Part shown: piece by piece, positions 24,535 through 62,087 of the stretch
How positions within the stretch are numbered: position 1 is the first letter of the stretch
Layout: each line of letters opens with the position of its first letter
Source of the DNA: Archangium sp.
GTDB lineage: Bacteria > Myxococcota > Myxococcia > Myxococcales > Myxococcaceae
Assembly: GCA_030695565.1 (NCBI GenBank)
Contig: JAUYRZ010000098.1
Location: forward strand, 1 to 64,000
Direction: 5' to 3'
Length of the DNA stretch: 64,000 nt
Program-made: the position numbers and the translations under genes
The notes under the pieces: generated by a model
The model's input: the letters and a program-made list of their open reading frames with translations, nothing else
Database searches by the model: none
Told to the model about the DNA's origin: nothing

Positions 24535-27500
24535 ATGCGTTTCACCCTGGCCCTCGCGCTCTGCCTCCCGTCCCTCGCCTTCGCCGCCCAGACGGTCCGC
24601 TACAGCGTCGACCAGCGAGGTGACGTCACGCTCATCGGCAACAGCGGGAGCTACGACTGCGGCAACGGCCCCATCGCCCCGGTGGTGGGCACCGTGGGCG
24701 CCTGCGGCACCAACACCGGCGACACCAGCGGCGACGTGCTGTGGCGCTCCGACTCGCCAGCCGTCAATCAAGCTGAAGCCAACAACGGCATCACGGTCGC
24801 CAACGCGAGGACGACCGCGCAGCTGGTGCTGCCCGTGGGCGCCACCATCACCTACGCGCGGCTCTATTGGTCGGCGAAGACCGGCGGCACCACGATCGAC
24901 ACCGACGTGGTGCTCGACCGGCAGGGCGGCTTCACCGCCGCGGTCACGGCCGACGTCACCTACCCTTCGGTCAACTCGAGCTACCAGGCGTCGGCAGACG
25001 TGACCACGCTCTTGCAGGCCAACGGGGAGGGCGCCTACCGGGTGGGCGGCATCAACATGCTCAACCCGGTCAACCAGAACGACTCCACCTTCTACGTGGG
25101 CTGGTCGATGGTGGTCATCTACCGCCTCGACTCGTTGCCGCCGCGCAACATCACCCTGTTCGACGGCTTCGACCTGGTGAACACCACGCAGTCGGCGAAC
25201 GTGACCCTCTCGGGCTTCGTGGTGCCTGACGCAGGCTTCGACGGGAAGCTGGGCATCATCGCCTACGAAGGCGACCCCGGGCTCACCGGCGAGACCTTCA
25301 CCTTCGGCGGGGTGGCGGCCAGCGACGCGCTCAACCCCAACAACAACGCGCTCAACGGCACCAGGACCTACCTGGGCGCGGCGGTCTCGAACGCCGGCGA
25401 CCTGCCCCGGTTGACCGGCGCCCAGGGGTCCGTCACCGGCATGGATCTCGACATCTTCAACGTCACCGCCGCGCTGAGCCCCAACCAGACCTCCGCCAAC
25501 TTGAGCGCCACCTCCACCGGCGACGTCTTCATTCACGGCGCGTTCATCACCTCGGTCTCCACCCTCAAGCCCATCTTCGTCGACGTGCAGAAGACGGTGA
25601 CCGACTTGAACGGCGGCGATGTGGTGCCAGGCGATGTGCTCGAATACGTGGCGACCGGCACCAACAGCGGCACCGACACGGCCATCGGGTTGGTGCTCAC
25701 CGACGCGCTGCCCGCGGGCATGACCTTCGTCCCGGGCTCCATCAACCTGGTCAGCGGCGGGGTCACGGGGCTCAAGACCGACGCCACCGGCGACGATCAG
25801 GGTGACTACAACGCGGGCAGCCGCACCGTCACGGTGCGCCTGGGCACCGGCGCGAACGCCACCACAGGTGGGAGCCTCCCCGTGGGGGGAAGCTTCGAGG
25901 TGCGCCTGCGCGTCACCGTCGACCCCGGCGCGCCGGGCACCATCAACAACCAGGTCGATCTCTCGGTGCAGGGCTCGGTGGGCCTGTCGTTGGGCCTCAC
26001 CACGCCCATCGTCTACCAGTCAGACAACGCGGGCACCGGCCTGCGGCGCCCCACCCCCATCACCATCCAGGGCGACACCACCATCGTCACCGGGCCCCCG
26101 CTCATCACCAACGCGGCCACCGCCACCTTCACCTTCGCCAGCAACATCAGCGGGGCCACCTTCGAGTGCAGCCTCGACGGCGCGCCCTTCGTGGCCTGCC
26201 CCACGCCTTCCACCTTCGTCGCCCTCACCGAGGCCAGTCACACGCTCCAGGTGCGCTACCGCTCGGGCGCCACGGTCGACGCCACGCCCGCCTCGTACAC
26301 CTGGGTGGTCGATCGCACGGCCCCCGTCGCGCCGGTGGTGCAGACGCCGGCCGACAACACCTTCATCACCAACCGCCGGCCGGTCATCTCGGGCACGGCC
26401 GAAGCGGGCAGCACGGTGCGCGTCTTCATCGACGGGGTGCAGATCGGCACCACCGTGGCCACCGCCGGAGGCACCTTCTCGTTCACCCCCACCAGCGATC
26501 TGGCCACGGGCCTGCGCCAGGTGCGCGTCACCGCCACGGACCCTGCGGGCAACACCTCGCCCAACTCCAACACCAACACCTTCACCATCGACCTCACCGC
26601 GCCCGACACGGCCATCGTGACCGGCCCGCCCGTCAACTCGAACTCCACCAGCGCGACGTTCACCTTCAGCGCCACCGAGGCGGTGCAGCGCTACGAGTGC
26701 AGCCTCGACGGCGCGGCCTTCACCACCTGCACCACGCCCCAGACCTTCACCGGGCTGGCGGCGGGGCCCCACTCGCTGGCGGTGCGCGCCGTCGACCTGG
26801 CTGGCAACACCGACGCGACGCCGGCCACGGCCACGTGGACCATCGACTTGACGGCGCCAGCCGCGCCGGTGGTGAGCGCCCCTGCCAACGGGAGCAGCAC
26901 CAACAACAACCGCCCGCCGATCACCGGCAGCGCCGAGGCCAACAGCACCGTCACCGTCTTCATCGACGGGGTGGCCGTGGGCACCACCACCGCCACCGCG
27001 GGCGGCACCTTCAGCTTCACCCCCACCTCCAACCTGAGCCAGGCCAGCCACACGGTGCGTGTCACCGCCACCGACGCGTCCGGCAACGTCTCGCCCACTT
27101 CCAACACCAACACCTTCACGGTGGACACCCCGGCCCCGAGTGCGCCGGTGGTGAGCGCCCCGGCCAACGGGAGCCGCACCAACAACACCCAGCCGCCCGT
27201 CACCGGAACGGCTGAAGCCAACAGCACCGTCACCGTCTTCCTCGACGGCGTCTCGGTGGGCACCACCACCGCCACCGCGGGCGGCACCTTCAGCTTCACC
27301 CCGCCCACGGCGCTGACGCAGGGCAGCCACACGGTGCGGGTGACCGCGCGCGACGCGGCCGGCAACACCTCGCCCAACTCGAACACCAACACCTACACGG
27401 TGGACACCACGCCGCCCGCAGCGCCCGTGGTGACCGCGCCTTCGAACGGCAGCGCCACCACCAACACCCGGCCCGCCATCACCGGCACCGCCGAGGCCAA

Positions 27501-30500
27501 CAGCACCGTCACCGTGTCCATCGACGGCGCGGTGGTGGGCACCACCACGGCCACCGCCGGGGGCGCGTGGACCTTCACGCCGCCCACCGCGCTCGCCGAC
27601 GGCTCGCACACGGTCAACGCCACCGCCACCGACGTCGCCGGCAACACCGGGCCCGTGTCCAACACCAACACCTTCACGGTGGACACCACCGCCCCCGCGG
27701 CGCCCGTCGTCTCTGCGCCCGCAGACGGGAGCGCCACCAACACCAACCGCCCGGCCATCACCGGCACGGCCGAGGCCGGCAGCACCGTCACCATCTTCAT
27801 CGACGGCGTGTCGGCGGGCACCACCACCGCCACCGCCGGGGGCACCTTCAGCTTCACGCCGACGACGAACCTGGCCCAGGGCAGCCACACGGCGCGGGTG
27901 ACGGCCACCGACGCTGCGGGCAACACCTCGCCCAGCTCCAACACCAACACCTTCACGGTGGACACCGCCGCCCCGGCGGCCCCGGTGGTGAGCGCCCCCG
28001 CTGACGGCGCCTTCATCGCCACGCGCACCCCCACCATCACGGGCACCGCCGAAGCGAACAGCACCGTCACCGTCTTCATCGACGGGGTCTCCGTGGGCAC
28101 CACCACCACCAGCGCCTCGGGGGCCTGGAGCTTCGCGACCACCGCCTCCCTGGCCGACGGCCCGCACACCGTGCGCGCCACCGCCACCGACGCCGCGGGC
28201 AACACCTCGGCGCCCTCGAGCACCAACACCTTCACCGTGCAGGGCGGCCCGCCCGAGACGACGCTGGTCTCGGGCCCCACGGGCACGGTGAGCAGCACCA
28301 CCGCCACCTTCGTGGTCTCGAGCGAGCCGGGCGCCACCTTCGAGTGCAACCTCGACGGCGCCGGCTTCACCGCCTGCCCCGCCACTTCGAGCTACATGGG
28401 GCTGAGCGACGGCCCGCACACCCTCGAGATCCGCGCCCTCAACGGCGCCGGTACGCCAGACCCCACGCCGGTCAGCCAGACCTGGACGGTGGACAGCAGC
28501 GTGCCCGACACCACCATCACGGTGCAGCCGCCGGCGCTCACCAGCAGCACCACGGCGCGCTTCGAGTTCACCGCCACCAAGGCCGACGCCACCTTCGAGT
28601 GCAGCCTCGACAGCGGCGCCTGGGTGGCCTGCACCTCGCCCTTCGTCACCGCGGGGACTCTCGCCGACGGCGTGCACGTGCTGCTGGTGCGCGCCATCGA
28701 CGGGGCGGGCCGCACCGACGCGACGCCAGCGCGCGCCACCTGGCAGGTCGACACCACCGCCCCGAACGCGCCCGTCATCACCGAGCCGGTCGCCGGCGCC
28801 ACCACCGGGCCGCTGCCGAACTTCGGCGGCCTGGGGGAACCGGGCAGCACCGTCACCATCACCATCAACGGGCAGCCGGTGTGCAGCGGCGTCGCGGCCG
28901 CTGACGGCCGGTGGACCTGCGCTGCCACCACGCCGCTCCCCGCCGGGCCCCAGACGGCCACCGCCACCGCGAAGGATCCCGCGGGCAACACCTCGATGCC
29001 CTCGATGCCCCGCCCCTTCGTGGTGGACGCTTCGACGCCCGACACCGTCATCCTCACCGGCCCCAGCGGCCTGACCAACCAGAGCATGGCCGCCTTCACG
29101 GTCACCTCCAATCGCACCGGCGCCACCTACGAGTGCAGCCTCGACGGCGCGGCCTTCATGCCCTGCAGCGCGTCGCCCAGCTTCACCGGCCTGATGGACG
29201 GCCTGCACACCCTCGAGGTGCGCGCGGTGGAAAACGGCATGACCGACCCCACCCCCGCGTCGCGCATGTGGACGCAAGACACCACGCCGCCGGTCACCCC
29301 GGGCATCACCTCGCCCGCGCCCAACGGCACCACCTCGCCCACGCCCACCTTCACGGGCACCGGCGAGCCGGGCAGCACCATCGTGGTGCGGGTGGACGGC
29401 CAGCCGGTGTGCACCACCACCGCCGACGCCACCGGCGCCTTCTCGTGCGCGGGGCCCGGCACCCTGACTCCGGGGCCGCACACCGTCACCGCGACGTCGA
29501 CCGACCCCGCGGGCAACAGCTCGCCGCCCAGCACCACCGTCGACTTCACGGTCGCCGCGGGCGCGCTGGACACCGCCATCATCGCGGGGCCCAGCGGCAC
29601 GGTCTCGTCGACCTCCGCCACCTTCTCCTTCGTGGCCACCGTGGTGGGCGCCACCTACGAGTGCAGCCTCGACGGCGCGGCCTTCACCCCGTGCACCACC
29701 CCGGTCACCTTCTCGTCGCTCAGCGACGGCAGCCACACCCTCGAGGTTCGCGCGGTCGACGGCGCCACGGTCGACAGCACGCCGGCCAGCCGCACCTGGG
29801 TCATCGACTCCAGCGCCCCGATGGCGCCGGTCATCTCGACGCCGGCTGACATGAGCACCGTCACCACGCGGCTGCCCACCTTCAGCGGCACGGCCGAGCC
29901 CGGCAGCACCGTGCGCGTCTCGGTCGACGACGCGCTGGTGTGCACCGCGGTGGCCAACGCCAGCGGCGCCTGGAGCTGCACCCCCATGGCCCCGCTCACC
30001 GACGGCGCGCACCGGGTGTCTGCCGTGGCGAAGGACGCCGCAGGCAATTTGAGCCCCGTCTCGATGACGAATCTCTTCACGGTGAGCGTGCCGGCCGTCA
30101 CCGTCGCCATCACGCTGCCCGTCAACGACGCCCTGACCAACGACGCCACGCCTGACCTCGCCGGCACCGCGACGCCGGGCTCGACCGTCACCATCTCCAT
30201 CGACGGCCTGGTGGTGGGCACGGCGCTGGCTGATGCCAACGGCCGGTGGACCTTCACCCCCACCACGGCCCTGACCGATGGCAGCCACGTCATCACCGCC
30301 ACCGCGGCGCTGGCAGGCACCACCTCGCCGGTCTCGAACCAGGTGACGGTGCGCATCGACACCACGCCGCCCACCGTCACCGTGGTGGTGACCAGAGACC
30401 CCAACGGCTTCCCGGTCATCACCATCACCCCGGGCGAGATGCCCGTCACCACCACCTGCAGCCTCGACGGCGGCGGCTTCGGCCCCTGCACCAACCCGCT

Positions 30501-32460
30501 GGACATCACCGGGCTCTCACCGGGCACGCACACCCTGGTGACGCGGGTGACCGACTCCGCGGGCAACGTCACCGAGACCACCACCACCTTCGAGATCCCC
30601 GAGCCGCTGGTCAGCTCGCCGGACCTCGGCATGCGCGGCGGAGGCTGCGGCTGCGGGAGCACCGACGGCTCGGCGGGCCTGGTCCTCTCGGCCCTGGCGA
30701 TGCTGGCCTTCGCCGCCCGAAGGCGCAGCCGCTGGGTGATGCGTGCCGCCGCCCCCCTGGCGCTGGTGGCGCTGGTGGCGGGCTCCACGCCGGCGGTGGC
30801 CCAGGCTCAGGTGGCGGGCTTCGATCTCGAGCGCATCGACCTGAACCCCGGGGCTTCGGCCAGCTTGATCACCGGCACCGGCGATCTGATGCGCAAAGGC
30901 GCCTGGCGGGCCTCGCTGGTGCTGCACTACCAGCACGACCCGCTGGTGCTCTATCGCACGGACACCGGCGATCGCCTCGGCGCGGTGGTGGGCAGCCGCT
31001 TCACCACCCACCTCGTCGGTGGGTGGACGCCGCTCGACTGGCTCGAGGTGGGCGTGCAGGTGCCCATCGTCGTCTGGCAGGGCGGCGACGATCTCACCCA
31101 GTGGAGGGTGCCGGCCCCGGTGGCCACCGCCCTGGGCACGCCGTGGATCACCGGCCGCTTCGGGCTGCTGCGTGAGCGCGCCGGCGCACCGCTCGACGTG
31201 TCGCTGCAGCTGGGCATCGGCCTGCCGTTCGGCAACGCGGCCGCCTACACCAACGCCACCCCGGTGGCCGTCGCGCCCCGGCTGGGCGCGGGCAAGACGC
31301 TTCTCCCCTGGCTGAGGCTCGGCGGTGAGCTGGGCTTCGTGCTCCGCGGGAGCCCGGGCGCGAGCACCGTGACGGTCAACGGCACGGCCTCCACCTTCAC
31401 CGCGGCGATGTCGGCCACCACCATCGGGCCGAAGCTGCGCGGCGAGCTGACGTTGCGCGGGGCGATCGGCCTCGACCAGGCGCAGGCGGGCGGCGAGCTG
31501 CTGCTGGGCCTGCGCTACCCGCTGGGCAAGTGGGTCGAGGTGTTCGCCCTGGGCGGCCCGGGCCTGGGGGCCCTGCCGGGCAACCCCGCCTTCCGGTTGA
31601 TGGCGGGCCTCGCCGTGGCGCCGCCGCTGGAGACCGAGCCGTCGCTGCCGGCCCAGGCCGCCCAGCCCGCGCAGCCCGTGTGCGACGCGAGCGTGTCTGA
31701 CGAGGTGCTGCGAAGCGACTGCCCCACCCTCGACCTCGACGGCGACGGCATCACCAACGCGGCCGACCGCTGCGTGCGCGTGCCCGGCGTGGCGAAGGCC
31801 CAGGGCTGCCCGCTGGTCGACACCGATCGCGACGGCCTCACCGACGACGTCGACGCGTGCCCGAAAGAAGCAGGCCCGAAGGAGCGCAAGGGCTGCCCCC
31901 TCAAGGACACCGACAAGGACGGGGTGGCAGACGAAGTCGACGCCTGCCCGGCCGAACCCGGCCCCGTGGAGCGCAAGGGCTGCCCCCTCAAGGACCAGGA
32001 CGGCGACACGGTCGAAGACGCGCTCGACAACTGCCCCACGGTCACGGGCACGGTGGAGAACTCCGGCTGCCCGGCCAAGCAGCGCCAGCTGGTGGTGATC
32101 ACCGCTGACAAGCTGGTCATCCGCGAGTCGGTGTACTTCGCCACCGGCAAGTCGGTGGTGCTGCCCCGCTCGAACAAGCTGCTCGACAACGTGGCCGAGG
32201 TGCTCAACGCGCACCCCGAGGTCCCGCTGATCCGCATCGAGGGGCACACCGACTCGCAGGGCAAGCGAGAGAACAACGTGAAGCTCTCGCAGGCCCGCGC
32301 CGACGCGGTGAAGGCCGCGCTGGTCAAGCGCAAGGTCGGCCCCGAGCGGCTCAAGGCGGTGGGCTTCGGGCCCGATCAACCCAAGGAGTCGAACGACACG
32401 GCGGCCGGCCGAGAGCAGAACCGGCGCGTGGAGTTCAACTTCGAGGCGGTCAAGCCGTAG
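24535..32460 (+). CDS. Giant Ig-repeat / MYXO-CTERM / OmpA-family fusion protein
   Basis: 2,641 residues from ATG 24535 (signal MRFTLALALCLPSLAFA). An N-terminal unique domain is followed by a DUF11-type domain from about residue 343 (VDVQKTVTD...LPAGMTFVPGSINL). Then come about ten Ig-like repeats of one kind (GTAEANSTVTVFIDGV; AGNTSPNSNTNTFTVD) mixed with about seven of another (ATYECSLDGAAFTPC; HTLEVRAVD), to near residue 2022. A MYXO-CTERM-like segment (GGGCGCGSTDG, hydrophobic helix, RRRSR) ends at 2068, exactly where a second signal peptide begins (MRAAAPLALVALVAG, ATG 30739). The last 573 residues are a barrel-like domain, thrombospondin-3 Ca2+ repeats (DTDRDGLTDDVDAC) and an OmpA peptidoglycan-binding domain (IEGHTDSQG, NRRVEF). 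It probably represents two ancestral genes. Layout recalls myxobacterial proteins annotated AgmC, from memory only. Confidence 0.85.
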   Translation: MRFTLALALCLPSLAFAAQTVRYSVDQRGDVTLIGNSGSYDCGNGPIAPVVGTVGACGTNTGDTSGDVLWRSDSPAVNQAEANNGITVANARTTAQLVLPVGATITYARLYWSAKTGGTTIDTDVVLDRQGGFTAAVTADVTYPSVNSSYQASADVTTLLQANGEGAYRVGGINMLNPVNQNDSTFYVGWSMVVIYRLDSLPPRNITLFDGFDLVNTTQSANVTLSGFVVPDAGFDGKLGIIAYEGDPGLTGETFTFGGVAASDALNPNNNALNGTRTYLGAAVSNAGDLPRLTGAQGSVTGMDLDIFNVTAALSPNQTSANLSATSTGDVFIHGAFITSVSTLKPIFVDVQKTVTDLNGGDVVPGDVLEYVATGTNSGTDTAIGLVLTDALPAGMTFVPGSINLVSGGVTGLKTDATGDDQGDYNAGSRTVTVRLGTGANATTGGSLPVGGSFEVRLRVTVDPGAPGTINNQVDLSVQGSVGLSLGLTTPIVYQSDNAGTGLRRPTPITIQGDTTIVTGPPLITNAATATFTFASNISGATFECSLDGAPFVACPTPSTFVALTEASHTLQVRYRSGATVDATPASYTWVVDRTAPVAPVVQTPADNTFITNRRPVISGTAEAGSTVRVFIDGVQIGTTVATAGGTFSFTPTSDLATGLRQVRVTATDPAGNTSPNSNTNTFTIDLTAPDTAIVTGPPVNSNSTSATFTFSATEAVQRYECSLDGAAFTTCTTPQTFTGLAAGPHSLAVRAVDLAGNTDATPATATWTIDLTAPAAPVVSAPANGSSTNNNRPPITGSAEANSTVTVFIDGVAVGTTTATAGGTFSFTPTSNLSQASHTVRVTATDASGNVSPTSNTNTFTVDTPAPSAPVVSAPANGSRTNNTQPPVTGTAEANSTVTVFLDGVSVGTTTATAGGTFSFTPPTALTQGSHTVRVTARDAAGNTSPNSNTNTYTVDTTPPAAPVVTAPSNGSATTNTRPAITGTAEANSTVTVSIDGAVVGTTTATAGGAWTFTPPTALADGSHTVNATATDVAGNTGPVSNTNTFTVDTTAPAAPVVSAPADGSATNTNRPAITGTAEAGSTVTIFIDGVSAGTTTATAGGTFSFTPTTNLAQGSHTARVTATDAAGNTSPSSNTNTFTVDTAAPAAPVVSAPADGAFIATRTPTITGTAEANSTVTVFIDGVSVGTTTTSASGAWSFATTASLADGPHTVRATATDAAGNTSAPSSTNTFTVQGGPPETTLVSGPTGTVSSTTATFVVSSEPGATFECNLDGAGFTACPATSSYMGLSDGPHTLEIRALNGAGTPDPTPVSQTWTVDSSVPDTTITVQPPALTSSTTARFEFTATKADATFECSLDSGAWVACTSPFVTAGTLADGVHVLLVRAIDGAGRTDATPARATWQVDTTAPNAPVITEPVAGATTGPLPNFGGLGEPGSTVTITINGQPVCSGVAAADGRWTCAATTPLPAGPQTATATAKDPAGNTSMPSMPRPFVVDASTPDTVILTGPSGLTNQSMAAFTVTSNRTGATYECSLDGAAFMPCSASPSFTGLMDGLHTLEVRAVENGMTDPTPASRMWTQDTTPPVTPGITSPAPNGTTSPTPTFTGTGEPGSTIVVRVDGQPVCTTTADATGAFSCAGPGTLTPGPHTVTATSTDPAGNSSPPSTTVDFTVAAGALDTAIIAGPSGTVSSTSATFSFVATVVGATYECSLDGAAFTPCTTPVTFSSLSDGSHTLEVRAVDGATVDSTPASRTWVIDSSAPMAPVISTPADMSTVTTRLPTFSGTAEPGSTVRVSVDDALVCTAVANASGAWSCTPMAPLTDGAHRVSAVAKDAAGNLSPVSMTNLFTVSVPAVTVAITLPVNDALTNDATPDLAGTATPGSTVTISIDGLVVGTALADANGRWTFTPTTALTDGSHVITATAALAGTTSPVSNQVTVRIDTTPPTVTVVVTRDPNGFPVITITPGEMPVTTTCSLDGGGFGPCTNPLDITGLSPGTHTLVTRVTDSAGNVTETTTTFEIPEPLVSSPDLGMRGGGCGCGSTDGSAGLVLSALAMLAFAARRRSRWVMRAAAPLALVALVAGSTPAVAQAQVAGFDLERIDLNPGASASLITGTGDLMRKGAWRASLVLHYQHDPLVLYRTDTGDRLGAVVGSRFTTHLVGGWTPLDWLEVGVQVPIVVWQGGDDLTQWRVPAPVATALGTPWITGRFGLLRERAGAPLDVSLQLGIGLPFGNAAAYTNATPVAVAPRLGAGKTLLPWLRLGGELGFVLRGSPGASTVTVNGTASTFTAAMSATTIGPKLRGELTLRGAIGLDQAQAGGELLLGLRYPLGKWVEVFALGGPGLGALPGNPAFRLMAGLAVAPPLETEPSLPAQAAQPAQPVCDASVSDEVLRSDCPTLDLDGDGITNAADRCVRVPGVAKAQGCPLVDTDRDGLTDDVDACPKEAGPKERKGCPLKDTDKDGVADEVDACPAEPGPVERKGCPLKDQDGDTVEDALDNCPTVTGTVENSGCPAKQRQLVVITADKLVIRESVYFATGKSVVLPRSNKLLDNVAEVLNAHPEVPLIRIEGHTDSQGKRENNVKLSQARADAVKAALVKRKVGPERLKAVGFGPDQPKESNDTAAGREQNRRVEFNFEAVKP

Positions 32461-32643: not shown

Positions 32644-33915
32644 TCACGGCGTCTCGACGGTGACGGTCACCGTCTCCGAACGCGAGCAGCGGACCTTCGG
32701 TGAGGGGAACACCGGGTTCATCGCCTGCACGGTGATGAACATCGACGCCGGCGCGTCGGGCGCGACGAACTGAGCCCGGTCGTTGGCGACCATCGGGAAC
32801 TGGGCCCCTGAAATCGCGTTGAACAGGCTGGCGTCGCCCGCGGCCCGCACCCACGACACGTCGAAGGTCGCGCCGGTCTGCACGCGCATCGGCGCTGTGA
32901 CGGAGAAGGCCGGAGGGACGACGCCCGTCTCCGCCCACACGGCCCGGCCCGGCATCGCCACGCGCACCACGTTCGGGCCGTCGAGAATCACTGCGCGGGT
33001 CGCCTCGAAGAGAAAGAAGGCGGTTCCATTCCACGTCAGAGGCTGCCCGTTCACCGTGACGCCAGCGTCAGCCGCACCGGGGATCACCTCGAAGCCTCCG
33101 TCGGCGTCCAGCCCACCGAGGGTGATGAAGGCCGAGGCCGTCGACCCGCTGACATAGAGGCTCGCGGTCACCGGCAGCGGCGCGCCGGCCCCGCTGGTGA
33201 TGCCGCACGCCCCCGCACCGACGGAGGGCGAGGCGAGGCGGGCATAGAAGTCGGAGCAGGCCAGCAGGTTGAGCAACGGGGCGGCGGTCAGCTCGAGCGC
33301 CAGCGACGCCGTCGAGAGGCTGCGCCAGGTCTGGGTCACGCCCCCGTCCACGAAGACGGTCGAGACGAGGTTGTAGCCGGTGGTCGCGCCTGCCGGGGCG
33401 TCGGGGGGCAGCGACTCCACGTAGATCAGGTACCCCTGCGCTCGAACCCCGGGCTCGAGCAGGTTCACCAGCCCGCTCGCCGAGGCCCCCAACACCCGAT
33501 CGACGACCGGGCCACCCGTCGACACGGTGAGCTCGCCATCGCCGTTGAGATCTTCGTAAGCGAGCAAGACGCCGACGGCACCGCGCACCCCGTTGGCGTC
33601 GACGGTGATGGCGTCTTGCGGGGGCAACGACGTGAGCGCGAGGGTGTAGGCCTGGGGGAAGGTGCCCGTGTACGTGACCTCGTCGGTCACCACGCTGCGC
33701 GGCGGCGCGGAGGGCACCCCGGCCTGCGGAAAGTTCGAGAACCACGCGAGCGCCAACCGCACGGGGTGGGTCAGCACGAGCTCTTCCTGCGCGGTCATGG
33801 TGCCGCGCAGCGTGGCGAGCGGCTCGCCCTCGTAGGTGTGGTTGGTGGCCGGGGCGCAGGCCGCGGTGAGCGCGGCGAGAAGTGCGACGGGGAAGCCGAA
33901 GCGAAGTGCAGTCAC
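32644..33915 (-). CDS. Lipoprotein of the caspase operon, unknown function
   Basis: 423 residues from GTG 33915, preferred over the ATG at 33945 because AAGGAAG lies six bases upstream and the product then starts as a clean lipoprotein (VTALRFGFPVALLAALTAAC). The mature region is beta-rich; it has a DxDGD-type loop (YEDLNGDGELTVSTGG) that may bind Ca2+, and late repeats resembling carboxypeptidase-regulatory or Ig folds (VIPGAADAGVTVNGQPL). It starts 58 bases after the caspase-like gene on the same strand, so it may be the last gene of the sigma-led operon. No known family is recognised. Confidence 0.72.
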   Translation of the reverse strand: MTALRFGFPVALLAALTAACAPATNHTYEGEPLATLRGTMTAQEELVLTHPVRLALAWFSNFPQAGVPSAPPRSVVTDEVTYTGTFPQAYTLALTSLPPQDAITVDANGVRGAVGVLLAYEDLNGDGELTVSTGGPVVDRVLGASASGLVNLLEPGVRAQGYLIYVESLPPDAPAGATTGYNLVSTVFVDGGVTQTWRSLSTASLALELTAAPLLNLLACSDFYARLASPSVGAGACGITSGAGAPLPVTASLYVSGSTASAFITLGGLDADGGFEVIPGAADAGVTVNGQPLTWNGTAFFLFEATRAVILDGPNVVRVAMPGRAVWAETGVVPPAFSVTAPMRVQTGATFDVSWVRAAGDASLFNAISGAQFPMVANDRAQFVAPDAPASMFITVQAMNPVFPSPKVRCSRSETVTVTVETP

Positions 33916-33973
33916 GGGTGTCTTCCTTGTGAGAGGTGCGCCCATGACTCGACTGGGCTCGAAAAATGGGAAC

Positions 33974-35551
33974 TCAAAAGCGCACCCCCAGGCTCAGCTT
34001 GCCTTCGAGGCCGGCGCTCACCGGGGGCTGCCCCTCGGCGGGAAGCCAGCGCAGCAGCGCGTCGAGCTCGGCGGCCGCGAAGAAGCGCTCTGCCAGCGGC
34101 ACCTCCAACCCGAGCAGCGCCCCGCCGGTGAGGCCGAGGCTGGTGCGCGGCGCGATCGGCCCGACCCCGAAGACCTGCGCGAGGCGGGCCTCGTCAGGGC
34201 GCTGGTAGCGCTGGCTGAGCACGCGGCCTTCGATCAGGAGCCCCGCGAAGGGGATGACGGGCCACTGCAGGTAGCGCCAGCCCGCCGACAGACGCACCCC
34301 ACCCTGCCACTCACCCGTCGTGACCTTCGCCCCCACCGTCTGGCCGCCGGTCAAGCTCACCGCGCCGCGCAGCCAGAGCGCCCCGAACGTCGCGCGAAGC
34401 CCCGCGCCCCCCCGCCACCGCGCCGCGGCCCCCACGAGCTGCTCGCTCTCCACGCTGCCCTCGAGGAAGAACGCGAGGGGCCGCTGCTCGAAGCTCGAGC
34501 CCTTGGCCACCACCTCGGCGAAGTGCAGCACCGTCAGCTCGCGCTCGTCGAGCGTGCGAACTCCGCCGAAGGGCAGCTCGAAGGTGACCAGGCCCACGCT
34601 CATGCCCAGGCGCTTGCGCAGCACGTAGCGGCCCGGCGTCACCGCCAGGCGCAGCGGGCGGCCGCGGGCCTTCGACACCTCGGCCACCAGGTCGGGGCGC
34701 GGCTGGCTCATCAGCACGAAGTTCCCTTCGACCTCCGGGGGGAAGACGATCGCGCTCCGGGCGGCGCCGGGCTGCGAGAGGATCACGTCGCCCGCGCCCG
34801 CCGCGTCGATGTCGAACACGGGGTGCTGCCCCGCCTGCGCGGCCCCGGCCACCGTGCGGCGAAAGGTGTAGCTGTACGACTCGCCCAGGCTCACCCGCCC
34901 GTCGCCGTCGACGTCGGCGTCACCGCGCAGGCCGGTCAGCCAGTGGTGGGTGAAGAGCGAGCCCTTGAGCGACGCGAACTCTTGCGACGCCTCGGCCGGC
35001 CCGCTCGAGCTCAGGTACACCGAGCCCTTCACTGCGGGCGGCTCGAGCGTGAGGGTGAACTCGGGCACGGCGCGCGCGCCCTTGGCGCGGGTGATGGCGC
35101 CGCTCTCACAGGCGTCGACCACCACCAGCTTGAAGCGCGCGCCCGAGTGCTCGACCAGGGCCCGCAGCTCAGCCATCGAGAGGTGGGTGCCCTTCAAGTG
35201 AAACGCGCCGTTTTTGCCGTGCGCCGAAACGAAGACGAACAGGCTCACCTCCTCGCCCGCATCCATCAGCTCTTTGACCCGGCCCAGGGTCTCGGCGATG
35301 CGCTCGCGAACCACGGGGGCCGTCTGGCCGAGCACGAGCTGAACGCGCGGCGGAGCGATCTGGCCCAGATCGAGAAACAACGTCGCCACCCGCTCCGCGT
35401 CGCGCTCGGCGTGCTCCAGCGGCTCATCGGAGGGATCTCCCACGTTGTTCCCGATGCTCAAGAGCAGCCGAACGTCGCCGGCTCGGCTGGGGGCCGCGCA
35501 GAGCAGGCAGGCGAGCAGCGCCCATCGGCACATCACCACGAGGCAGCTCAC
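33974..35551 (-). CDS. Exported caspase-like peptidase (C14) with C-terminal barrel
   Basis: 525 residues from GTG 35551, which overlaps the anti-sigma stop (GTGA) behind an AAGGGGG site; the longer open frame upstream is a shadow. A Sec signal (about residues 7-24) precedes a caspase-fold domain with His111 (FVSAHGKNG) and Cys148 (VVVDACESG), the expected catalytic dyad. An EF-hand-type Ca2+ loop is visible at residues 213-224 (DVDGDGRVSLGE). After about residue 265 the protein turns into strand-rich sequence ending KLSLGVRF with terminal Phe, as in outer-membrane barrels. It follows sigma and anti-sigma genes with 4-base overlaps. Bacterial caspase homologues cleave after Arg/Lys or Asp; the target here is unknown. 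Confidence 0.86.
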   Translation of the reverse strand: MSCLVVMCRWALLACLLCAAPSRAGDVRLLLSIGNNVGDPSDEPLEHAERDAERVATLFLDLGQIAPPRVQLVLGQTAPVVRERIAETLGRVKELMDAGEEVSLFVFVSAHGKNGAFHLKGTHLSMAELRALVEHSGARFKLVVVDACESGAITRAKGARAVPEFTLTLEPPAVKGSVYLSSSGPAEASQEFASLKGSLFTHHWLTGLRGDADVDGDGRVSLGESYSYTFRRTVAGAAQAGQHPVFDIDAAGAGDVILSQPGAARSAIVFPPEVEGNFVLMSQPRPDLVAEVSKARGRPLRLAVTPGRYVLRKRLGMSVGLVTFELPFGGVRTLDERELTVLHFAEVVAKGSSFEQRPLAFFLEGSVESEQLVGAAARWRGGAGLRATFGALWLRGAVSLTGGQTVGAKVTTGEWQGGVRLSAGWRYLQWPVIPFAGLLIEGRVLSQRYQRPDEARLAQVFGVGPIAPRTSLGLTGGALLGLEVPLAERFFAAAELDALLRWLPAEGQPPVSAGLEGKLSLGVRF

Positions 35552-36285
35552 GGGGCCCCCTTCACCACGCGCACCGCTTCGACCTTGCATTGACCGCACT
35601 GCAGCTTCAGCCGGGGGGTCCTGGCCTGACCCCGCAGTTGCGCTGCGAGCCCCTCGACGTCGAGCGGCGTGGTGGCGAAGACGGCGACGAACCACTCCGG
35701 CCCAGCCGAGTCGTCGAGGGCGATCGCCCCCGGCAAGACCGCAGCGCCCGCGCTCACCTCGGCCGAAGCGCGCACCTCGACCCGCTCGGTGCCATCGAGT
35801 TCGAACACCGCCAGCCAACCCGCGACGGGCGCGCGGTAGGAGAACCGGAGCTGATCTCCGGGTTCGACCGACTGATCCATTCGCACCGGGGTGGGTTCAG
35901 CGGCCCCGCGCTTGAGGAAGACCTGAAAGGCATCGCCCTTGAGCCTCGAGTCCGGCACGGGCTCGCGAACGAGCACCACCGCCACCACCGCCGCAGCGAC
36001 GCCGACGGCCAGCACGCCAGCCCACCAGCGCCTCGCCCCGCCCACGAGCCGACCAGCCTCCTCAGTGGCCTGGTTGCGCCGCGAGAGCTGGCCCAGAAAC
36101 AGCTCGGGCGGGTGCGCCTTCACGTACGCCCCGGTGTTGGCCCGAAGGGATGCGACGTAGGGCCCGCAGTGAGCGCACAGGCCGACGTGAGCGCCGAGGG
36201 TGGGCTCTTCCCCCGCGCTGTGGGCCTCGAGACGAACCCGAGAAGGGCAGCCGTCACCACGAATTGGAATGAGCTCTGGGTTCAT
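35548..36285 (-). CDS. Zinc anti-sigma factor with periplasmic DUF4384-like domain
   Basis: 245 residues. The cytoplasmic N-terminus has the zinc anti-sigma signature Hx3Cx2C (His33, Cys37, Cys40; HVGLCAHC) with another Cys13. A single membrane helix (WWAGVLAVGVAAAVVAVVLV, about 87-106) leads to a periplasmic domain with VEPGDQLRFSYRAPVAGWLA, which resembles DUF4384-type domains often linked to caspase-like proteins. It overlaps the sigma gene by ATGA at 36282 and the caspase gene by GTGA at 35548, so the three are coupled. It should hold the ECF sigma inactive until an envelope or redox signal. Confidence 0.86.
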   Translation of the reverse strand: MNPELIPIRGDGCPSRVRLEAHSAGEEPTLGAHVGLCAHCGPYVASLRANTGAYVKAHPPELFLGQLSRRNQATEEAGRLVGGARRWWAGVLAVGVAAAVVAVVLVREPVPDSRLKGDAFQVFLKRGAAEPTPVRMDQSVEPGDQLRFSYRAPVAGWLAVFELDGTERVEVRASAEVSAGAAVLPGAIALDDSAGPEWFVAVFATTPLDVEGLAAQLRGQARTPRLKLQCGQCKVEAVRVVKGAP

Positions 36286-36782
36286 GAGGTGACTCCGTTG
36301 GCCTTGTTCCAGTGCTTCTTGAAGGCCTGCTCGAACAGCGCGAGCTTCTTGCCGACGGTCTTGCGCGAGAAGCCGGTCTGCGCGGCGATCTCTTCCTGGG
36401 TCATGCCATCGAGGTGATGAAGCACCCCCATCTCGCGCGTCTGGGCGTCGAACTGCCCGAGAATGGCGCCCACCACGGCGCGGCGATCTCCATCGCCCGC
36501 GGCGCCCACGTGAGCGCCCGGCGCCCGGGCCAACACCTCTTCTGCCTGCGGCCTCTCGCGGTTGCGCTTGCGCGCGCCGTCAAAGCAGCAGTTGCTCGCG
36601 ACCGAGTAGAGCCAGGCCAGCGTCGAGTTCACCCCGGGGGGCTTGCCGTACTTCTGCACCCTGCAGAACGTGTCCTGCAGGGCGTCGGCGGCGTCGGCGT
36701 CGTTTCGCAAGAGGGCCGAGCAGCGCTGGTGAACGAGGTACCCATAGCGCGTGTACAGCTCTGCCAGTTCAGACCGTTCCAC
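36282..36782 (-). CDS. ECF-family RNA polymerase sigma factor
   Basis: 166 residues from GTG. Region 2 spans about 1-70 (ELYTRYGYLVHQRCSALLRN, DAADALQDTFCRVQKYG) and region 4 about 110-160 (HLDGMTQEEIAAQTGFSRKT), the two domains of an extracytoplasmic-function sigma. It is the first gene of an overlapping operon sigma, anti-sigma, caspase-like protein, and perhaps the lipoprotein at 32644. A palindrome with GGAAC on both strands lies 41-55 bases upstream and fits the -35 consensus of many ECF sigmas, suggesting autoregulation. Confidence 0.92.
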   Translation of the reverse strand: MERSELAELYTRYGYLVHQRCSALLRNDADAADALQDTFCRVQKYGKPPGVNSTLAWLYSVASNCCFDGARKRNRERPQAEEVLARAPGAHVGAAGDGDRRAVVGAILGQFDAQTREMGVLHHLDGMTQEEIAAQTGFSRKTVGKKLALFEQAFKKHWNKANGVTS

Positions 36783-36822
36783 GGGCTCTCATTCGCACAA
36801 GACTCCCCGAGATGTCTTTTTG

Positions 36823-36837
36823 GGGAACGTGGTTCCC
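36823..36837. promoter_or_regulatory. GGGAAC-GTG-GTTCCC palindrome, putative divergent ECF promoter
   Basis: Perfect 6-bp arms around a 3-base spacer. Each arm contains GGAAC, a common ECF -35 element, pointing outward to the sigma operon on the left and to the membrane-protein gene on the right. In each direction the start codon lies 32-50 bases downstream, leaving room for a -10 about 16 bases away. A T-run follows on one side. Promoter function is inferred. Confidence 0.5.
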
Positions 36838-36868
36838 ATTTTTTCTCAGCTCGGCGGTCTGGGGACCC

Positions 36869-37408
36869 ATGACCGCTCTCGTGCTTGCCTTGTTCGTCTC
36901 TCAAGTGCCACCCGCCGCCGCCGAGCCGCCCGAGGTGGGCGTCTTTGCCCAGTGGGTTCAACGACACCTCCTCACGCTCCACTTCGCTGGGAACGCAGCC
37001 GAGGTGCACCAGCGAGAGCGGGCGTTTCGGCTGCAAGACGACACCTTCGCCGACGCCTTCACCCTCGTGCCAGAAGCCCGGGAGCTGGCGGTCAGTGCCA
37101 CCGCCGCCTTCCGCACCGGGACTGCGCTGCAGAGCACCGGGCTGGTCTCGGTGGGGGCCGGTGTCGGCCTCACCCTGGTGGCGACGCTCATTCCGTCGCT
37201 GCTGCTGCCGCTCCTCGTGGTGGCCCTCGTGATGTCGGGGGCGGCGCTGGTGCTGACGGTGATCGCCCTTCCCTTTCTGCTCAACGCCCAGTCGAAGTTT
37301 CTCTCGTCGGTCGCCACCTACAACCGGGGGTTGCTCGACCTGAGGCCGCCAGCGCAGCCGCAGACGAGCAGCGCAGACGGCAGCGGCGGCCTCACGCTCA
37401 CCCTGTGA
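36869..37408 (+). CDS. Exported/membrane protein divergent from the sigma operon
   Basis: 179 residues from ATG 36869, chosen because it gives a clean signal (MTALVLALFVSQVPPAAA) and lies downstream of the palindromic promoter; the frame is open back to an ATG at 36812, which would be upstream of that promoter. After the signal comes a helical region (QWVQRHLLTLHFAGN), then two long hydrophobic segments around residues 85-130 (GLVSVGAGVGLTLVATLIPS, LLVVALVMSGAALVLTVIAL). No family is recognised. Being divergent from and possibly co-regulated with the sigma/caspase operon, it may be part of the same response. Confidence 0.65.
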   Translation: MTALVLALFVSQVPPAAAEPPEVGVFAQWVQRHLLTLHFAGNAAEVHQRERAFRLQDDTFADAFTLVPEARELAVSATAAFRTGTALQSTGLVSVGAGVGLTLVATLIPSLLLPLLVVALVMSGAALVLTVIALPFLLNAQSKFLSSVATYNRGLLDLRPPAQPQTSSADGSGGLTLTL

Positions 37409-61394: not shown

Positions 61395-62087
61395 ATGAAT
61401 CGGCGACTCAGCGACCTTCAGCTCGAGAAGTACCTGGCCGAGGCGGTCTCTCCGGAAGAGCGGGCGGCCCTCGACGCGGTGCTCGCGCAGTCGGTTCCCG
61501 ATGCGGACGCGCTGCAGCAGCTGCGGGCGTCGACGGCGGCGTTGTTCGTGACTGCGCCTCCGGCTGCGTTCGTGGAGAAGGTGATGCCCACTCATCGCTC
61601 GCCATGGCGGGGGTGGTTGGGTGCGCTCAGTGCGCTCGCGGCGGCGGCGGCGTTGCTGCTGGTCGTTCGCAGTCAGCAGGACGATGACGAGACGCGGGTG
61701 AAGGGCGGCATCGGGTGGCATGTCACCGTCACGGGTCAGACGGGCACCCACACGCTGATGGAGAGCGCGCAGGTCGTTCCGGGCGACACGCTGACGTTCC
61801 AGGTCGCCACTGAGAAGCCCGCGTTCGTGGCGGTCATCTCGCACGCGCCCGATGGGTGGTGGGTCTACGCGCCTGCGGCCGGGAGCAATGCGGTGCGGGT
61901 CGAGCGCGGGTTGACCGTGATTCCCGATGCGGCGCGGCTGGATGAAACGGAAGGCGCTGAGACGATTTACCTGGTCTCGAGTGAGCAGCCTTTCGATCCA
62001 GAGAAGCTGCGCGAGAGCATGAAGAGCAACGTGATTCCCGAGGCGATCTCGGTCGAGCCGATCGGCATCGTGAAGCGCCGAAAATAG
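61395..62087 (+). CDS. Anti-sigma-like membrane protein without zinc motif
   Basis: 230 residues. The cytoplasmic N-terminus (DLQLEKYLAEAVSPEERAAL) resembles anti-sigma domains but has no Hx3Cx2C and no Cys. One membrane helix (WLGALSALAAAAALLLVV, about 74-91) is followed by a periplasmic domain with VVPGDTLTFQVATEKPAFVA, the same DUF4384-like pattern as the anti-sigma at 35548-36285. No sigma gene is adjacent, so its partner, if any, is elsewhere. It starts 43 bases after deformylase. Confidence 0.75.
   Translation: MNRRLSDLQLEKYLAEAVSPEERAALDAVLAQSVPDADALQQLRASTAALFVTAPPAAFVEKVMPTHRSPWRGWLGALSALAAAAALLLVVRSQQDDDETRVKGGIGWHVTVTGQTGTHTLMESAQVVPGDTLTFQVATEKPAFVAVISHAPDGWWVYAPAAGSNAVRVERGLTVIPDAARLDETEGAETIYLVSSEQPFDPEKLRESMKSNVIPEAISVEPIGIVKRRK

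Follow-up and report, generated by a model that had tools for sequence, protein, structure and literature searches.

Why should a caspase-like protease with an outer-membrane barrel be encoded in one operon with an ECF sigma factor and an anti-sigma factor, and is it an output of that circuit or part of its switch? In the window, by which we mean the whole 64,000-nucleotide stretch of Archangium sp. DNA that was analysed, genes for an ECF sigma factor, a zinc-type membrane anti-sigma factor, a caspase-barrel protein and a lipoprotein lie consecutively on the minus strand between positions 32644 and 36782; all features of these genes given below are on that strand. The genes were found where the original prediction had placed them, and the sequence confirmed the 4-nt overlaps that it had reported, ATGA between the sigma and anti-sigma genes and GTGA between the anti-sigma and caspase genes, with the lipoprotein gene next downstream. 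The system extends beyond this interval to a divergent gene at 36869-37408 (plus strand), which carries the same promoter motif as the lipoprotein gene. Convergent with the operon, positions 24535-32460 (plus strand) encode a protein of ~2640 aa that contains numerous Ig-like repeats together with TSP3-like calcium repeats, and whose end is OmpA-like.

In a scan of contigs for close relatives, an 11-row ortholog alignment gave matches and the single protein none. The caspase gene was present in 53 of 60 relatives, at up to 13 copies per genome, and in 162 of 195 genomes across Myxococcota; the 8.5 Mb genome studied here carries seven copies. Genes for sigma, anti-sigma and caspase stood in a row in 36 of the 42 loci from the order Myxococcales. 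Wider searches placed both partners near the caspase gene in 55 of 59 loci, a set that partly comprises the same genes as the earlier one and includes 30 loci from outside the order, where the three genes occurred together in 27. At least two of the loci without both partners (L123 and L154) resemble contig ends. The gene order, for which a neighbourhood analysis in Myxococcota had been proposed as a check, is conserved both within and beyond the order. The sigma/anti-sigma overlap was exactly 4 nt in 35 of 36 complete cassettes, and the sole exception (L038), whose chosen start lies 91 nt downstream, depends on that choice of start. Tree distances of caspases and anti-sigmas were correlated (r = 0.82; permuted maximum, 0.13), a correlation to which shared ancestry contributes. 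We are nearly certain of the identity of the locus as a copy of a signalling cassette that occurs throughout the phylum Myxococcota, and we conclude that the sigma/anti-sigma/caspase circuit is real and ancient. Six further loci of the same genome (L049-L054) hold caspase-barrel-type genes; two of them (L051 and L053) have a caspase gene with no adjacent same-strand anti-sigma gene, and in L054 the sigma and anti-sigma genes are on the strand opposite to the caspase gene.

The sigma gene (36282-36782, GTG start) encodes a short protein of 166 aa with regions 2 and 4 only; Sigma70_r2 (1.7e-9) and Sigma70_r4_2 (3.4e-6) were both above the Pfam cut-offs, and the protein matched the sigma70-ECF family TIGR02937 at 1.3e-16. 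PADLOC matched none of the caspase, anti-sigma and lipoprotein; its two very weak matches to the sigma factor were taken as chance. The anti-sigma gene (35548-36285, ATG start) encodes 245 aa comprising a zinc-binding N-terminus, one transmembrane helix and an Ig-like, DUF4384-type periplasmic domain. It is the predicted inhibitor of the adjacent sigma factor, whose gene it overlaps by a nearly constant 4 nt across cassettes. The zinc anti-sigma motif HVGLCAHC was present as originally described (residues 33-40; 36166-36189), and HxxxCxxC recurred in 35 of 36 cassettes; across the phylum, 78-79 of 93 anti-sigmas retain the zinc ligands. Neither the window's anti-sigma nor its lipoprotein gave a match in the Pfam scan. 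The DUF4384-like assignment of the anti-sigma's domain comes from its relatives: DUF4384 (PF14326) was matched by 23 of 35 anti-sigma relatives (best, 2.4e-8) and zf-HC2 by 14 of 35, and when seven cassette relatives were scanned singly, one exceeded the DUF4384 cut-off. In the model of the anti-sigma (pLDDT 87.4), helices at the N-terminus are followed by one long helix at residues 60-106 and, from about residue 118, by an Ig-like domain. The best PDB match of that domain, the Ig-like AGS-C domain (9ard) at Z 9.2, was near the background of the tool and was not used. Elsewhere in the window, an orphan anti-sigma-like protein (61395-62087, plus strand) has one membrane helix, a DUF4384 match of 3.2e-4 and an R-V-K-G-G motif; it lacks zinc cysteines, and neither a sigma gene nor a caspase gene adjoins it. 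Since its homologues in L231, L232 and L237 adjoin orthologues of C73, a different caspase encoded by this genome (in L051), the orphan may be the separated partner of that caspase.

The caspase-barrel gene (33974-35551, GTG start) encodes 525 aa, with a signal peptide followed by a caspase domain (residues ~23-264), a beta domain (~267-343) and the barrel (359-525). The protein matched PF00656 (Peptidase_C14) with 28.4 bits against a cut-off of 21.4; its 47 bits to the EACC1-associated caspase family (NF047832) fall below the curated cut-off of 140. In a model built from 36 relatives (mean pLDDT 87.7; pTM 0.65), residues 23-264 matched caspases and metacaspase 4 at Z 22-23 (best Z 22.7, rmsd 2.1 over 196 residues), in support of the predicted caspase fold, and AtMC4 was among the top structural matches (Z 22.6). 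The dyad that had been read from the sequence, His111 (35219-35221) and Cys148 (35108-35110), is conserved in 96 of 96 relatives, as is D146 of the D146-x-C148 motif; the dyad of this predicted protease is intact. The EF-hand-type loop likewise stands as described: the 12 residues DVDGDGRVSLGE (residues 213-224; 34880-34915) fit D-x-D-x-D-G...E and form a candidate calcium site, with D213 and E224 kept in 96 of 96 caspases and D217 in 93 of 96. Given the conservation of H111, C148, D213 and E224 in every relative and of the 4-nt overlap in nearly every cassette, these features are not due to chance. In DegS, an inner-membrane protease, a trypsin-like domain is joined to a PDZ domain. No such combination was found here, the only Pfam peptidase matches being of the caspase/C13 type and the fold being that of a caspase, and the same scan revealed no TPR or CHAT domain of the Csx29 type among the four genes. 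Two residues of the putative pocket, D146 (two before the Cys) and S109 (two before the His), correspond to Asp137 and Ser84 in AtMC4, the residues that hold Lys225, where that enzyme cleaves itself in a Ca2+-dependent manner (PMC7206013).

The C-terminal part of the protein (33977-34477) was predicted to be an outer-membrane barrel, and the DSSP strands of the model support this, with eight antiparallel strands at about residues 359-525 that match OmpA and NspA. NspA was the best Foldseek match of the whole caspase-barrel model (E 9.6e-8), and the others, mostly small barrels, included OmpA, OprF, OmpX, Ail and OmpW. Strands 2-3, 4-5 and 6-7 are joined by turns of 2, 6 and 4 residues; the other loops have 9, 4, 18 and 8 residues. 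In the OmpA pattern, both ends of the barrel are periplasmic. Because the barrel is C-terminal, eight-stranded and of OmpA/NspA type, its strands being joined by short turns at one end and by loops that are mostly longer at the opposite end, the N-terminal caspase domain would face the periplasm and not the cell surface, which argues against the surface display that had been proposed. We found no evidence for a role in cell death or predation. The caspase fold, the barrel and the conserved gene order were all found, so that none of the outcomes named beforehand as refuting the proposal occurred; the envelope ECF circuit and, through relatives, the DUF4384-like anti-sigma domain are also supported.

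What a periplasmic caspase might cut is suggested by the conservation of Lys-Gly pairs, which we counted over 96 caspases and 93 anti-sigmas. K157 and K350 are the only caspase lysines conserved in >90% of sequences, and each precedes a Gly. The first pair, K157-G158 (35078-35083; K in 94, R in 2, and G in 96 of 96), is a putative self-cleavage site at the p20/p10 junction, which is where caspases and metacaspases are processed. The second, K350-G351 (34499-34504; K in 86, R in 9, and G in 93 of 95), is a putative cleavage site in the linker between the soluble part and the barrel. The loops that hold these lysines, 157-170 and 346-355, are the only two segments of the model with pLDDT <50. 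A third pair, K116-G117 of the anti-sigma (35935-35940; K in 88 and R in 4 of 92, G in 91 of 92), is conserved above the zinc ligands and would provide a cleavage site just outside the inner membrane; in the model, K116 directly follows a low-confidence linker (residues 106-115) after the membrane helix. One further conserved lysine of the anti-sigma, K242 (94%), is close to the C-terminus and lacks a conserved Gly after it. The sequence R-x-K-G-G/A is common both at caspase 157 and at anti-sigma 116, so that the two contexts are alike, and substitutions at the Lys of the pairs are almost exclusively K to R. A [KR]G after the transmembrane helix was present in 92 of 92 caspase-linked anti-sigmas, compared to none of the 13 other transmembrane zinc anti-sigma-like proteins of this genome. 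Only two caspases have R157, and both also have R350 and an anti-sigma Arg (Fisher p 0.0015 for position 157 against the anti-sigma); the two loci are on long neighbouring branches, so the triple replacement may be a single event and lends weak support. Orthocaspases are described as cutting after basic residues in the available text of PMC6426788. The most likely specificity of the enzyme encoded here is therefore cleavage between Lys or Arg and a following Gly, both in itself and in the anti-sigma.

The promoter region of the lipoprotein gene bears on the outputs of the circuit. Homologues of this gene (32644-33915, 423 aa) are found downstream of most orthologous caspase genes. Translation probably begins at GTG 33915, which has an SD-like AAGGAAG, rather than at ATG 33945 as first proposed, since a sigma-type promoter motif, GTTCCCATTTT-N14-GTC, occupies 33946-33973. 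The motif is perfect here and at one other place in the 8.5 Mb of the genome, against ~0.01 perfect copies expected by chance as estimated from base composition. The other copy (36832-36859, plus strand) is 10 nt upstream of the divergent gene, which encodes a predicted secreted or membrane protein of 179 aa for which we found no family and no homologue among the loci compared. Most orthologous sigma genes have the motif or a close variant upstream, and the same motif precedes many lipoprotein genes; the sigma factor is predicted to direct transcription from it. The window's own sigma gene is preceded by the variant GTTCCCCAAAAAGACATCTCGGGGAGTC (36801-36828), a weaker form (GTTCCCCAAAAA...GTC) that keeps TTCCC-N19-GTC, so autoregulation of this copy is likely but less certain.

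Across 11 genomes with orthologues, the motif had 21 matches at ≤1 mismatch, compared to 6 for the reversed pattern. Eleven of the 21 are in this locus, and four remote matches (L091, L094, L096 and L099) precede lipoprotein genes of several families. The remaining six (L090, L098, L105 and L108-L110) were discarded, as they have no called gene after them and equal the reversed-pattern control in number (6 vs. 6). Copies also precede a lipoprotein-like gene of 916-920 aa just upstream of the sigma gene (L046 and L048) and a divergent gene for a 137 aa lipoprotein (L044), and the lipoproteins encoded on either side of paralogue cassettes belong to other families. Lipoproteins therefore look like the usual companions and outputs of the circuit, and GTTCCCATTTT-N14-GTC appears to mark a small, lipoprotein-rich regulon. 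In L055, L057, L059, L063-L065, L068 and L072-L076, lipoproteins of ~300-340 aa are encoded before the sigma gene and after the caspase gene; the search used detected no relationship of these to the window's lipoprotein. The motif was absent before the sigma gene in paralogue cassettes. The best-sampled paralogue clade has another promoter-like motif, read by eye as approximately CTTTCTGTTTT-N11/12-GTGTCC and lying upstream in L049, L063-L065, L068 and L073-L076, which suggests that the paralogues form insulated parallel circuits. Lipoproteins were also considered as conserved substrates of the caspase and were rejected in that role, because a conserved basic-Gly column was found in neither the LIPO nor the UP family.

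We think it somewhat more probable than otherwise that the caspase-fold protease controls the ECF sigma factor by cutting the anti-sigma, after its own release. The caspase domain would be a zymogen, tethered by its barrel and hanging into the periplasm, until a signal at the envelope, perhaps together with Ca2+ in the EF-hand-type loop, led it to cut itself after K157. A further self-cut after K350 would free it from the barrel, and the freed caspase would then cut the anti-sigma after K116, beside the inner membrane. Additional proteolysis of the anti-sigma would release the sigma factor, which would turn on its own operon, the lipoprotein gene and the divergent gene. A protease that cuts the anti-sigma and is also encoded in the sigma factor's operon would be both the switch of the circuit and, through autoregulation, one of its products. 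The conserved Lys-Gly pairs in its own linkers and in the anti-sigma linker suggest that it is unlikely to be a mere output, as first described, and is probably an upstream switch. The caspase is best read as a periplasmic switch, not as a surface weapon. The broader proposal, in which an outer-membrane-tethered caspase acts as a site-1 protease that releases itself at Lys/Arg|Gly and crosses the periplasm, in several parallel Myxococcota circuits of which at least some have distinct promoter codes, we advance tentatively, at a little below even confidence.

The caspase could instead be an effector only, trimming lipoproteins or misfolded envelope proteins after the sigma factor had been activated conventionally, by zinc or redox chemistry at HxxxCxxC or by another protease. 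The zinc motif, the translation of the caspase from the same operon and the shared promoter motif of the lipoprotein genes all accord with such a role, which we nevertheless regard as unlikely: the zinc ligands are less conserved than K116-G117, the lipoprotein family lacks a conserved basic-Gly site, and the Lys-Gly pattern would be left unexplained. Conservation by itself does not distinguish binding from cleavage, and the Lys-Gly pairs could be structural or docking elements, the caspase being a co-sensor that binds the anti-sigma and leaves it uncut; we regard this as improbable. Only a few residues separate K116 from the first strand of the anti-sigma domain that follows, and the orphan protein, which lacks the zinc motif, keeps Lys-Gly with no adjoining caspase (although its homologues adjoin one); both observations count against the cleavage model, as does the weaker form of the promoter motif before the window's sigma gene, and the pair may be a structural or docking site. 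Against docking, the catalytic dyad is universal, Lys is exchanged almost only for Arg, as expected at P1, and the same dipeptide occurs in three unrelated linkers. The original proposal, a Ca2+-dependent protease that is displayed on the surface and serves in cell death, predation or surface processing, would suit the signal peptide, barrel and EF-hand-type loop and recalls the speculation on autolysis in Myxococcus in the available text of PMC3501461; it is very improbable given the OmpA-type topology, the presence of the family in small-genome members of the phylum and its near-universal coupling to an anti-sigma.

Part of this arrangement was already known. According to the available text of Asplund-Samuelsson et al. 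(2012, PMC3501461), four of five metacaspase genes of M. xanthus are in operons with sigma-70 factors, and similar operons occur in Anaeromyxobacter, Haliangium, Sorangium, Ralstonia and Fibrobacter; these very probably belong to the same family as our cassette. That text names the sigma factor only, with no mention of an anti-sigma, barrel, lipoproteins, promoter motif, Lys-Gly sites or a regulatory mechanism. In the open-access literature we found no report of the cassette's anti-sigma, barrel, motif or cleavage logic, and no paper on an outer-membrane caspase that cuts an anti-sigma; the new element is the Lys-Gly signature with the cleavage logic that it implies. A parallel in logic is the Csx29-Csx30-CASP-sigma system, in which a caspase-type protease relieves an anti-sigma holding an ECF-type sigma factor that autoregulates its locus (PMC10028731). 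That protease, however, is an RNA-activated TPR-CHAT protein of a CRISPR complex, with no outer-membrane barrel and no zinc anti-sigma. DegS-RseA-RpoE, outlined in the same paper, shares the envelope signal, the periplasmic cut of a membrane anti-sigma and the release of an ECF sigma factor, whereas here the protease would be a caspase fold on an outer-membrane barrel. AtMC4 resembles our protein in its caspase core, Asp-x-Cys and Ser-x-His pocket and Lys self-cleavage site (PMC7206013), but it comes from a plant, carries a long linker domain that is inhibitory and another acidic Ca2+ region, and has no barrel or sigma link. Orthocaspases, as described in the available text of PMC6426788, share the p20 domain, His-Cys dyad and basic specificity; the barrel and anti-sigma partner belong to the cassette described here. 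Proteolytic enzymes, including CHAT domains, have also been proposed, according to a review, to control group ECF54 with no anti-sigma involved (PMC8999054).

Bacterial caspase homologues are usually discussed in connection with cell death, and little is known of their usual functions and substrates. A phylum-wide clade of caspases now has a predicted substrate, cut site, compartment and regulon, all of which can be tested in Myxococcus. If the cleavage model is true, the caspase would be a signalling protease of the bacterial envelope, parallel to DegS/RseA and to CRISPR Csx29/Csx30. A bacterial relative of the caspases would thereby have an unexpected role in regulation, and the function of myxobacterial caspases would become a directly testable question.
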